64,000 nt of DNA from Acidimicrobiales bacterium (GTDB lineage Bacteria > Actinomycetota > Acidimicrobiia > Acidimicrobiales > MedAcidi-G1), in assembly GCA_029577135.1 (NCBI GenBank), contig JARQPW010000008.1, positions 1 to 64,000 of the forward strand, written 5' to 3'. A program made the translations under genes and the position numbers. Of the stretch, positions 1 to 3,728 are shown piece after piece. The notes under the pieces are model-generated. The model was given only the letters and a program-made list of their open reading frames with translations, did not search any database and was not told the origin of the DNA. Position 1 is the stretch's first letter. Every line of letters starts with the position of its first letter.

Positions 1-2854
1 CTTCGCCCATGCCCATGCCTTCGCCCATGCCCATGCCTTCGCCCATGCCCATGCCTTCGCCCATGCCCATGCCTTCGCCCATGCCCATGCCTTCGCCCAT
101 GCCCATGCCGGGTTCGTCCCATTCGGTGACCTCGCCGTCGAGGCCGACGTGGGTGCTGGTGACCGAGCCGTCCGGGTTCTGGCAGCGCTGGCCGGTGGAA
201 CCGTCGTCGAAGGTGACGATCTCGCACCCTGTCGCCTCGTCGAACCGCATCTCGACGGGCTGCAGGTCGCGCAACTCCTCGGGCACATTGTCGGGCATCA
301 TGTCGCCGGGCATCATGTCCCCGGGCATGTTCATTCCCATGCCCATGCCTTCGCCCATCCCCATGCCACCCATGTCCACGGGCATGCGGCGCTGCATCAT
401 GGGTGGAGGTTCCTCCTCCCACTCCTGGACCTCGCCCGATTCATCCGTGAAAGTGTTGGTGAAGGTGCCGTCCCGGTTCATGCAGCGGGAACTGACCGTC
501 CCGTCCTCGAAGATGACCTCCTCACAGCCGGTCTCCGGGTCGAACGTCACGATTGCCGGGATCTTGTCCCGCATCTCGTCGGGCATGTCAATACTGCCCG
601 GCATCATCTCGTCCATGAAGTCCTCGGGACGCATGCCCTCCTCGAAGTTGCCGAAGCGGGCGGCGTCCTCGGGACGCATCTGTTCGTCGGGCGATCTTCG
701 TCCCATCATCATCGGATCCTGGAAGCCGGGCTCCTCCCACTCCTGGGTCTCGCCGTCGGCGCCCGTGAACGTGTTGGTGAAGGAGCCGTCCTCGTTGCGG
801 CAGCGCGTTCCTGTGGAGCCGTCCTCGAACGTGACCGACTCACAGCCGGTCGCCTCGTCGAACTCGAACGACGTCGGCTGGAGGTCGCGCATCTCCTCGG
901 GCATGTCGTCGGGGAACTGCTCGTCGGGCCCGCCCATGCCGAAGCCCTCGTCGGGTGCGGTCATGCCGGAGAAGAGCTCTGCCGGGTCGGGCGTTCGGCC
1001 GGGGCCCCACCTCTGGACGCCCCCTCGTCCGTCGACCCATTCACCGCTGCCGTCCGGGCAGAGCTGGCCGCGGGTGCCGTTCGCGTAGACGACACGCGAG
1101 CAGCCGCTGTTCGGGTCGACGAACTGGTCGACGGGATCACCCCCGAAGAAGTCGGAGGCGATCGTTTGTTCCGTGGTCCGGTCACGGGACGGGTCGAAGT
1201 CCTGGAAGCCGAGGTCGACCACCTGTGCCTTGAACTCCCAGTTGTCGAGTTCGTCGACCTGGGTCTCGTCGAGCACGTCGTAGAACGAGGCGCCCTCCGC
1301 GCTGACAACCTGTTCGACGAAGTCCGCGAGGTACACCTCCTGGGTCTCGGTCTCGAGTTCGAGTACCTCCTCCCGGATCTGCTCCGGCAACTCGATGGGC
1401 TTGGTGTACTCGACCTCGAAGGTCGTGTCGATCTGCACGTCCTGCTGCTCGGCGCTGCGCTCGATCTCGACCTGTTGGGTCACGGTGCCCGCCTCGTCCT
1501 TGTAGTCGAACTGCGTCGCCTCTTCGGTGACGGCGACCTCGATCTCAAGGTCCGCCGCCTTCTCGACGACGATGTGCTCGGTTGCGGTGGCGATCGAAAT
1601 GGTGGCGTCCGTGCCGGTGGCGACATCGAGGGACAGGTCCTGGGTCTCCTCCGAGACCTCGAAGCCAATCGATCCGGCCGCTTCCAGTTCCACGGATGCG
1701 ACTCCTGTGTCCGTCTTTACGGCGACGAATACCTCGGACCCCGTCTCGATGTCGACCTCTGGCGCGTCGACCCGGATGATGGCGGTCGAGACGCCGAACG
1801 AACCCCGGATCGACGCGACGACGCCGCCTTGGCCGGGCACGGCCTCGTCGCCCTCCAATGACGTGCCGTCGGCCTGGTTGAGGGTCCAGTTTCGATCAGA
1901 GCTCGTGATGGAGAGGAGGAGTCCGCCGCCGCTGTCGCCGCTGCCGGCTCCAGAGAACGGTTCGGGGAACGGCGCCTCCCGGGAGCTGATGGGCGTCAGG
2001 TCGATGGTGCCCAGCCCGCCACTCCAGGCGTCGGCGGCCTCGTCGGGATTGGTGGCGGCGAAGGCGAACACCCAGGTGCCCTCCTTGACGTCCATGTCGA
2101 TCCAGCGGATCTCACCTGGCCAGTTGGGATCGTAGATGTAGACCCGGACGTTGGTCCTGTCGACCCACTCGAGCCGGTAGGGGAGGACGCTGTGACCGCC
2201 GTGCGAGGAGTAGATGCCGATCGTGTACTGCTCGTTGCGCGGGTCCGCGAGGGAGTGGCCCAACTCGGCGACGATCGCCTTGATCGGCTGCGCCCGCCAC
2301 TGGGCGGTGGCGTCGATGACGTCGCCGAGGAACTGGGTGGCGAAGAGGCGGGAGAGCGAACGTTCGACCAGGCGGTCCTTGCGCACGTCGAATGCGCCGG
2401 GATCGGTGCGCACGAGGAACCTGTCGAGGATCGCAACGGTCATGCCTTCGCAGACGCCGCCGGACATGGCCTGGGCGACCATGTTGATCCACTCCTTGGC
2501 GGCTGGCGTCGGCGTGCAGGCGCCTTCGGTGGAGTCGCAGACGGCCTCGGCTCCGAACAGGGCGATGGCATCGGCGGTGCTGAACTGCTGCGTGGTGTTG
2601 GCGGCGTAGTTGGCGAAGGACCAGGCGTGCTGCTCGATCTCGAAGCCGAGGGAGCGCCCGCCGTCGTCGGTCTCGGTGGCGACCTCGGTCTCCTCCCAGA
2701 GTTTCTCGAGGACCTGGTCGGCCTCTGCCTCGCTCATGACTTCGATCGTCACGGTGACGTCGCTGCCGCTGCCACCCCCGCCACAACTCGCAGCCACGAG
2801 GGCGCACGCCACCACTGCGTGCCGTGTCCGGCCCCACACTCCGCCCCTGCGCAC
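1..2854 (-). CDS. Large repeat-bearing lipoprotein with a papain-like Cys/His/Asn pattern (3' end outside window)
   Basis: Partial gene of about 951 codons that continues past the left edge with no stop. The start is GTG at 2854, preceded by a GGGGGGAGG ribosome site. Residues 1-24 form a lipoprotein signal ending VAASC (Cys24), so it is probably anchored on the outer face of the membrane. C135 (context GGVCEGM), H221 (GGHSV) and N244 (YDPNWPG) have the order and context of a papain-fold peptidase catalytic triad. After about residue 280 the chain becomes acidic. From there to the edge it carries diverged repeats of the form FDxxTGCExVTFEDGSTG...C...DGxxTxT, each with two Cys, and ends in a GMGMGE repeat. 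The exact family is unknown to me. The peptidase-like fold is inferred from motifs and peptidase activity is unproven. Confidence 0.8.
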   Translation of the reverse strand, partial: MRRGGVWGRTRHAVVACALVAASCGGGGSGSDVTVTIEVMSEAEADQVLEKLWEETEVATETDDGGRSLGFEIEQHAWSFANYAANTTQQFSTADAIALFGAEAVCDSTEGACTPTPAAKEWINMVAQAMSGGVCEGMTVAILDRFLVRTDPGAFDVRKDRLVERSLSRLFATQFLGDVIDATAQWRAQPIKAIVAELGHSLADPRNEQYTIGIYSSHGGHSVLPYRLEWVDRTNVRVYIYDPNWPGEIRWIDMDVKEGTWVFAFAATNPDEAADAWSGGLGTIDLTPISSREAPFPEPFSGAGSGDSGGGLLLSITSSDRNWTLNQADGTSLEGDEAVPGQGGVVASIRGSFGVSTAIIRVDAPEVDIETGSEVFVAVKTDTGVASVELEAAGSIGFEVSEETQDLSLDVATGTDATISIATATEHIVVEKAADLEIEVAVTEEATQFDYKDEAGTVTQQVEIERSAEQQDVQIDTTFEVEYTKPIELPEQIREEVLELETETQEVYLADFVEQVVSAEGASFYDVLDETQVDELDNWEFKAQVVDLGFQDFDPSRDRTTEQTIASDFFGGDPVDQFVDPNSGCSRVVYANGTRGQLCPDGSGEWVDGRGGVQRWGPGRTPDPAELFSGMTAPDEGFGMGGPDEQFPDDMPEEMRDLQPTSFEFDEATGCESVTFEDGSTGTRCRNEDGSFTNTFTGADGETQEWEEPGFQDPMMMGRRSPDEQMRPEDAARFGNFEEGMRPEDFMDEMMPGSIDMPDEMRDKIPAIVTFDPETGCEEVIFEDGTVSSRCMNRDGTFTNTFTDESGEVQEWEEEPPPMMQRRMPVDMGGMGMGEGMGMGMNMPGDMMPGDMMPDNVPEELRDLQPVEMRFDEATGCEIVTFDDGSTGQRCQNPDGSVTSTHVGLDGEVTEWDEPGMGMGEGMGMGEGMGMGEGMGMGEGMGMGEGMGMGE
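2..109. repeat. 18-bp tandem repeat, six copies, coding (GMGMGE)n
   Basis: Six perfect copies of an 18-bp unit lie in frame inside the lipoprotein gene and encode Gly-Met-Gly-Met-Gly-Glu. The array reaches the window edge, so its real length is unknown. Perfect copies suggest recent expansion or frequent length change. Confidence 0.95.
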
Positions 2855-3086
2855 CTTCGCCTCCCCCCTGGATGTCCGGTGGGCACATCCTTGCAGACAG
2901 AATCGGTGTCGGCCACCGCAGCGCACCGGCCGGCGTTCTGGTGCAAACGACGACGATTGTGACCGCATTCACCCCCACATCGTGGGAAAGACCCGATCCA
3001 GAGGCCGCTCATTGGTAGGATGACGGGTACGTCCTCGAGACTGTCGTGGCAGATCGCTGCAGCCTGCAGCCGCCGATGTCCTCCGA

Positions 3087-3728
3087 ATGACCCTCATGTC
3101 CTTGACGCCTTTCCTCCGCCTGTTCGCCGCGCTGACGGCTGTGCTGGTCCTGGCGACCGGCTGCCGGTCGGCGGACCACGGCACCCCGGTCTCCGGTGGC
3201 CTCAGTGCTCCCGCCACGACCACGGTCGCACCCGCCACCACCACGGTCGCACCCGCCACCACCACGGTCGCACCCGCCACCACCACGGTCGCACCCGCCA
3301 CCACCACGGTCGCACCCGCCACGACGACCACCTTCCCCAAGATGGAGTTTGTCGCACACCGTCCTGCGGTGAAGCCCGACGAGGTCGACCGACCTACGGG
3401 ACCACCCACGCTGCGCGAGTTGATCCAGGCCTACCTCAAGCCCGAGGACCACGCCTGGGCCGAAGAGGTGGCGTTCTGCGAGTCCAGCGCCCAGCCCGGC
3501 GACGTGTTCAGCTTCGCCGTCAACCGGTCGAGTCGTGCCGCTGGCTGGTTCCAGCACCTTCCCAAGTTCTGGGAGGAACGGACCGAGGCGGCGGGCATCG
3601 CCGGTGCCTCGATCGCTGACCCGGTCGCCCAGGTGCAGGTTGCCGCCTACCTCCTCTACGAGACCTCTGGCGGACGGTACCACTGGGTGCAGTCGAAGGG
3701 CTGCTGGGGCAGTAGCCACAGCCACTAG
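3087..3728 (+). CDS. Lipoprotein with Rpf/transglycosylase-like domain
   Basis: A 213-aa exported protein. Residues 1-26 are a lipoprotein signal with lipobox LATGC (Cys26). A Thr/Pro/Ala-rich linker of seven-residue repeats (TTTVAPA) follows at about 42-80. The C-terminal domain (about 105-213) has the pattern of actinobacterial resuscitation-promoting/lysozyme-like domains: a CESS motif with the presumed catalytic Glu, then WFQHLPKFW, and a terminal W..SKGCWG. It would cleave or remodel peptidoglycan outside the cell. ATG at 3096 is an alternative start, and no strong ribosome site is visible. Domain identity is by motif only. Confidence 0.85.
   Translation: MTLMSLTPFLRLFAALTAVLVLATGCRSADHGTPVSGGLSAPATTTVAPATTTVAPATTTVAPATTTVAPATTTVAPATTTTFPKMEFVAHRPAVKPDEVDRPTGPPTLRELIQAYLKPEDHAWAEEVAFCESSAQPGDVFSFAVNRSSRAAGWFQHLPKFWEERTEAAGIAGASIADPVAQVQVAAYLLYETSGGRYHWVQSKGCWGSSHSH
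3210..3314. repeat. 21-bp tandem repeat, five copies, Thr/Pro linker
   Basis: Five near-identical 21-bp units in frame encode PATTTVA. They form the linker between the lipid anchor and the lysozyme-like domain. Changes in copy number would alter linker length without breaking the frame. Confidence 0.95.

Follow-up and report, generated by a model that had tools for sequence, protein, structure and literature searches.

Probable surface cysteine hydrolase of an undescribed papain-like family, set on a repeat-built stalk, in an Acidimicrobiales bacterium

The stretch of DNA analysed here (the window, 64,000 nucleotides) begins at base 1 of contig C67 in an Acidimicrobiales assembly of 2.35 Mb and 68 contigs. 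Its first gene is a minus-strand lipoprotein ORF (bases 1–2854) that is still open at the contig end. The frame can be extended to an in-frame ATG at 2968 (bases 2–2968, minus strand; 989 aa counted from that codon), but GTG 2854 is the likely start: the preliminary description of this DNA had chosen it, and a strong ribosome-binding stretch upstream, GGGGGGAGG, bears that choice out. Named residues follow the numbering of that description, which equals the P0001 number of the window protein minus 38. The gene was also said to be cut by the window; it is indeed truncated, but because the assembled contig itself stops there, with no left flank. Close orthologues are present in five MAG records, three labelled Candidatus Microthrix and the others Acidimicrobiaceae or Actinomycetota. 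A divergently transcribed small lipoprotein gene (3087–3728, plus strand) lies beside the ORF and is also the neighbour in four of the five other orthologue loci (L003–L006; it was not called in L007). Its product had no Pfam match above the cut-off and contains A-F-C-E-S and G-W-F-Q stretches; within the gene, a 21-bp tandem (3210–3322; 5.4 copies, 98% matches) codes for PATTTVA.

By inspection, the window protein starts with an arginine-rich segment; a short run of hydrophobic residues then leads to a lipobox, ...ALVAAS-C, ending in Cys24 (P0001 C62; signal peptide and lipobox at 2783–2854, minus strand). This arrangement, a signal peptide with a lipobox that ends in Cys, is that of a bacterial lipoprotein, as had been proposed, and the [A/G]-C-GGGG sequence is kept in the orthologues L003–L007.

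The signal is followed by a cysteine-peptidase-like domain (P0001 105–339; 1952–2656, minus strand) with profile matches in phylum and class genomes. The preliminary description had placed Cys135, His221 and Asn244 of this domain in papain order, and all three residues are there. Conservation was assessed in 47 homologous domain rows, 46 of them covering each site (L014 is cut before the His part, and L044, also cut, lacks the Cys part); these rows are not independent, as they include the window with its L003–L007 orthologues and the near duplicates L015/L016 and L019/L065. The proposed nucleophile Cys135 (P0001 C173; 2450–2452) and the proposed base His221 (P0001 H259; 2192–2194) are kept in 46/46 covering rows, and Asn244 (P0001 N282; 2123–2125) in 45/46, with Glu in L043. 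Two residues before this Asn, Asp242 (P0001 D280; 2129–2131; all four codons on the minus strand) is kept in every one of the 46 covering rows, and because of this stricter conservation it is the likelier third catalytic residue, displacing the Asn named earlier. Alignment A5 comprises 40 rows, the most distant sharing 20% identity with the window, and has six invariant columns: Asn, Gly, Cys, Gly, His and Asp. Judged from the alignments, the conservation of the triad is beyond chance, its columns being invariant or nearly so down to this level of identity. The order typical of papain-like (clan CA) enzymes, in which the Cys comes first, the His second and a polar residue third, is present and kept in the homologues, and loss of the triad among them, the outcome set beforehand as the test of the peptidase proposal, was not seen.

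The cysteines of the mature protein comprise Cys24 of the lipobox, a 106/113 pair, Cys135 and four C-x13-C pairs in the C-terminal part. Cys135 is the only one that lacks an evident partner, which is what a nucleophile would do in a protein that is exported; the paired cysteines would form disulfides. Other features count against a papain-like reading. An Asn 53 residues before Cys135 (conserved in 46/46) and a Gln 39 residues after it (45/46) were taken in this sense. A Gln a few residues ahead of the Cys is common, if not universal, in the papain-like superfamily; no conserved Gln stands just before Cys135, the window's Gln at −7 being Gln in 15/46 covering rows, and in these alignments its absence likewise argues against the assignment.

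No significant match to the domain was found in Pfam or NCBIfam, in which 40 members were scanned singly, or among PDB sequences, where the queries were the protein and two profiles. The weak matches obtained were taken as chance: the best had E-values of 0.021 in Pfam and 0.013 in NCBIfam, Toxin_15 (E 0.4) appeared in one of 12 members and Peptidase_C30 (E 0.14) in one of 40, and the best PDB profile match (0.22) was a prenyl synthase subunit with G-H-C-x-G-M. The whole-protein PDB matches (best 0.0087) fell mostly in the repeats and the low-complexity part and were set aside in the same way. Peptidase_C39_2 (PF13529) had no Pfam match in the 40 members at E 1, neither Peptidase_C1 (PF00112) nor Transglut_core (PF01841) had one, and family searches of the window's own genome with these three returned none.

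Profile–profile comparison gave a partial resemblance. With hhalign, A5 aligned to Peptidase_C39_2 (28 sequences) with a score of 27.6 and E 0.0018, at a probability of only 14.9%, pairing the two His residues and matching Asp242 to the Asp of the N-D-P motif. Two reversed controls scored 12.8 and 11.9. Of 200 column permutations none reached the observed value, the highest scoring 19.5; a positive control, Peptidase_C39_2 against Peptidase_C1, scored 45.2. The Cys half gave no alignment to Peptidase_C39_2 (global 9.5; N-terminal part 8.1). The likeness to this family comprises the succession of Cys, His and Asp along the chain and a His–Asp region similar above permuted controls, with a His-to-Asp spacing of 21 residues in the window domain and 18 in L075. 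The missing Pfam match, the unalignable Cys half, the lack of a conserved Gln just before the Cys and an extra Asn two residues after the Asp set the domain apart. Papain proper shares the Cys-His-Asn order, and, according to PMC10318531, the third residue of papain-like enzymes may be Asn, Gln, Asp or Glu. As the closest family, Peptidase_C1 (7 sequences) was unsupported, its score of 20.4 being at the level of controls (best of 100 permutations 20.2); the domain also differs from it in having no Pfam match, in the stricter conservation of its Asp column and, by inspection, in lacking an N-S-W motif. The papain-like assignment draws on which residues are conserved, on the order in which they stand and on a profile match to one half of the domain, from which we infer the fold itself. 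The domain probably represents a new family, and most likely one related to the well-known papain-type enzymes.

The chemistry need not be proteolytic. A papain-like domain of this kind might transfer or hydrolyse another amide, as transglutaminases, deamidases and cell-wall amidases do, with the wall or surface proteins of the cell itself as targets, and we regard this as unlikely but worth weighing. The C-E-S and G-W-F-Q stretches of the divergent neighbour, which we take to recall resuscitation-promoting factors or lytic transglycosylases, would favour such a role, and PMC10318531 describes transglutaminase-, deamidase- and amidase-type enzymes with related catalytic sets within the papain-like superfamily. 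On the other side, the Pfam scans of the domain contained no NlpC/P60, CHAP or amidase family, and the hhalign score against Transglut_core was noise (12.3; reversed controls 12.7 and 14.7), a weak objection given that Peptidase_C39_2 against Transglut_core is itself noise (10.4) and that this score therefore excludes nothing. By the same test, with the same reservation, transglutaminase was unsupported as the closest family.

A papain-like fold has its Cys where the core helix begins. A structure model of the catalytic domain, built from six near-identical sequences (A3), reached a pLDDT of only 36.6; in it a helix begins three residues after Cys135, and the model is too poor to weigh. Of the earlier proposal of a papain-type peptidase, the conserved Cys, His and polar residue stand. 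The fold does not gain support from the model, and the likeness to Peptidase_C39_2 is confined to the His/Asp half. The poor model would be compatible with a quite improbable alternative, in which the conserved Cys, His, Asp and Asn serve a structural role or bind a metal within some unrelated fold and the protein is a non-catalytic adhesin or binding protein; the adhesion-type or propeller modules (fn3, Big_2, RCC1) of some relatives point the same way. This alternative sits poorly with the behaviour of the individual residues, since Cys135, His and Asp are invariant in the covering rows while the 106/113 pair is absent in 8/46, all of them in family f45, and with the His/Asp half beating 200/200 permuted controls.

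Beyond the catalytic-like domain lies a very acidic middle region (P0001 341–600; 1169–1948, minus strand), strand-rich by inspection, with 60 D/E, 12 K/R and 0 Cys in 260 residues. It is also found in L003–L007 and, in diverged form, in L015. The remainder of the protein (P0001 601–989) is again acidic (86 D/E versus 22 K/R) and, as the preliminary description had it, repeat-built with paired cysteines. Four C-x13-C pairs (P0001 C623/637, C709/723, C815/829 and C915/929) mark four units, delimited as 65 aa and placed in a 17-row alignment together with units from L003, L006 and L007: U0 (974–1168), the most divergent, U1 (716–910), U2 (398–592) and U3 (98–292), all on the minus strand. The unit, modelled on U1, is predicted to form a beta meander of five strands (pLDDT 87.3, pTM 0.67) with its two cysteines in strands 2 and 3.

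A Foldseek search with the unit model returned 0/631 matches at E 0.001 or better, with polo-box and EspG chains leading. In a structural comparison, the CPAP G-box/TCP10 chains 4lzf, 4ld3, 4bxp and 4bxr were among the best 25, alongside many other meanders, with Z 5.1–5.8 and rmsd 1.9–2.5 over 44–48 residues, where Z below 8 may reflect a common arrangement only. The repeats resemble the Tcp10_C/CPAP G-box sheet (PF07202), which is an open beta sheet of a single layer, in being a predicted beta meander with D-G turns. Against the window protein Tcp10_C scored 15.7 bits, below its cut-off of 36, and assignment of the repeats to a known Pfam repeat was accordingly dropped.

A simple motif search showed Cys-paired DG units in three further large ORFs of this genome. 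In the 1821-aa ORF L164 (4317–9779, minus strand) all 28 motif pairs have the x13 spacing, as do 20/20 in the 1364-aa L165 (1–4095), which is cut by its contig start and lacks its N-terminus, and 9/10 in the 525-aa L166 (3828–5402); L164 and L166 begin with a signal-like peptide by inspection. A homology search of the genome with the window protein gave E 6.2e-6 for the 1821-aa ORF and 0.0012 for the 1364-aa ORF. The 525-aa ORF reached only 0.22, and its link to the repeats therefore comes from the motif. L165 passes Tcp10_C (84.8 bits, 3e-24), its best stretch (1134–1161) lying in the C-terminal part that has no Cys, so this match does not place the C-x13-C units themselves in Tcp10_C. From their sequence pattern, the stapled beta repeats look like a shared module that is not special to the window gene.

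Units are joined by short-unit linkers. At the contig end, the 18-bp expansion noted earlier at the edge was found as a perfect tandem of 6.06 copies encoding the GMGMGE linker (bases 1–109, minus strand). Unit numbers and linker types differ between different species-level genomes, which is the level of this comparison, as distinct from strains of one species: six units are present in L003, six in L006 (five upstream of an N gap and a single one beyond it), at least three in L007 and at least four in the window, and the orthologues carry GGD-, GPG- and QPDD-type linkers in place of GMGMGE. For this reason, metal binding by the Met-rich GMGMGE linker was set aside as a general function. The variable acidic surface region of the preliminary description is thus acidic and does vary in unit number and linkers, while the units themselves are a conserved C-x13-C repeat.

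In the window, L004, L005, L006 and L007 the contig runs out within the ORF, and in L003 the ORF is interrupted by a 12-N gap; these breaks fit a hard-to-assemble region and make the copy number provisional. The position of the 18-bp array exactly at the contig end, together with these five loci and the gapped L003, might be read to mean that the array is an assembly product and that the true copy number differs much. We consider this very unlikely, as short-unit linkers of a related but different kind occur within contigs in the orthologues, and a further orthologue, L014, is cut already inside the catalytic domain, so that not every break is due to repeats. Past the gap in L003, whose true size is not fixed, one frame ends ...PPPDGGNPGP-stop, which would mean that the protein has no second anchor.

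Protein or profile searches gave matches in 11/61 relatives, 14/296 phylum genomes and 21/395 class genomes, the window's own genome being counted each time. Three viral_contigs scans found no relative of the domain, and it had no match in the phage records. Two Rhodococcus plasmids carry a member, 21% identical and annotated as a hypothetical protein; one of these distant members (L047 5911–7416), on plasmid p4 of Rhodococcus sp. DN22, lies upstream of genes annotated as Mu transposase C-terminal domain, TniB and TniQ. Family f45 comprises short members in nine genomes (frames of 229–307 aa plus one of 116 aa); its eight members covering the region are those without the 106/113 pair, and L046 is the only member in which a crude lipobox motif was seen. 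The head is followed by fn3 in L019 and L058, by Big_2 in L068, by Big_2 and RCC1 in L035 (L158 is the same gene) and, in some relatives, by threonine–proline linkers, and L156 holds two head copies side by side. In L158 (2675–6199, minus strand) the cysteine-peptidase-like head precedes Big_2 and then six to seven RCC1 repeats. No Pfam family was found in 7/10 relatives scanned for architecture, several of which are cut by the fetched flank. Among the matches listed, the open-licence literature contained no paper on the catalytic-like domain or the C-x13-C repeat. The domain probably represents a family of papain-like cysteine hydrolases at the surface of Actinomycetota that is so far undescribed.

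On balance, we think it reasonably probable that the window gene encodes a lipid-anchored surface cysteine hydrolase, probably a peptidase, of an undescribed papain-superfamily family with a Cys-His-Asp site and a stapled beta stalk. The protein would be exported by the Sec route and lipid-anchored, holding the hydrolase domain near the membrane, where a Cys106/Cys113 disulfide may brace it. Cys135 would attack a peptide or other amide bond of the substrate, activated by His221, which Asp242 (or Asn244) would orient. The acidic region and, beyond it, the disulfide-stapled meander units with their flexible linkers could then serve as a stalk or binding surface, and slippage in the linker DNA may alter the spacing of the units.

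The window protein thus probably bears a protein-cutting or protein-modifying domain, of a family unnamed in the libraries searched, on a repeat-built stalk. In the small genome that carries it, one Cys-stapled beta repeat of fixed spacing is common to several large ORFs. The evidence is evenly balanced as to whether the relatives together make up a new, unnamed Cys-His-Asp hydrolase family distinct from the catalogued papain-like families, in which an Actinomycetota surface enzyme head is mounted on stalks that can be exchanged, be they stapled beta repeats, fn3, Ig-like or RCC1 modules. Such a family would include a branch of short, apparently unanchored proteins and a Rhodococcus branch carried on plasmids. 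The gene and its relatives show a single surface head domain combined with several kinds of repeat stalk, and the conserved catalytic-looking domain, unnamed in Pfam and NCBIfam and present in several Actinomycetota families and on two Rhodococcus plasmids, is a concrete target for activity probing and structural work.
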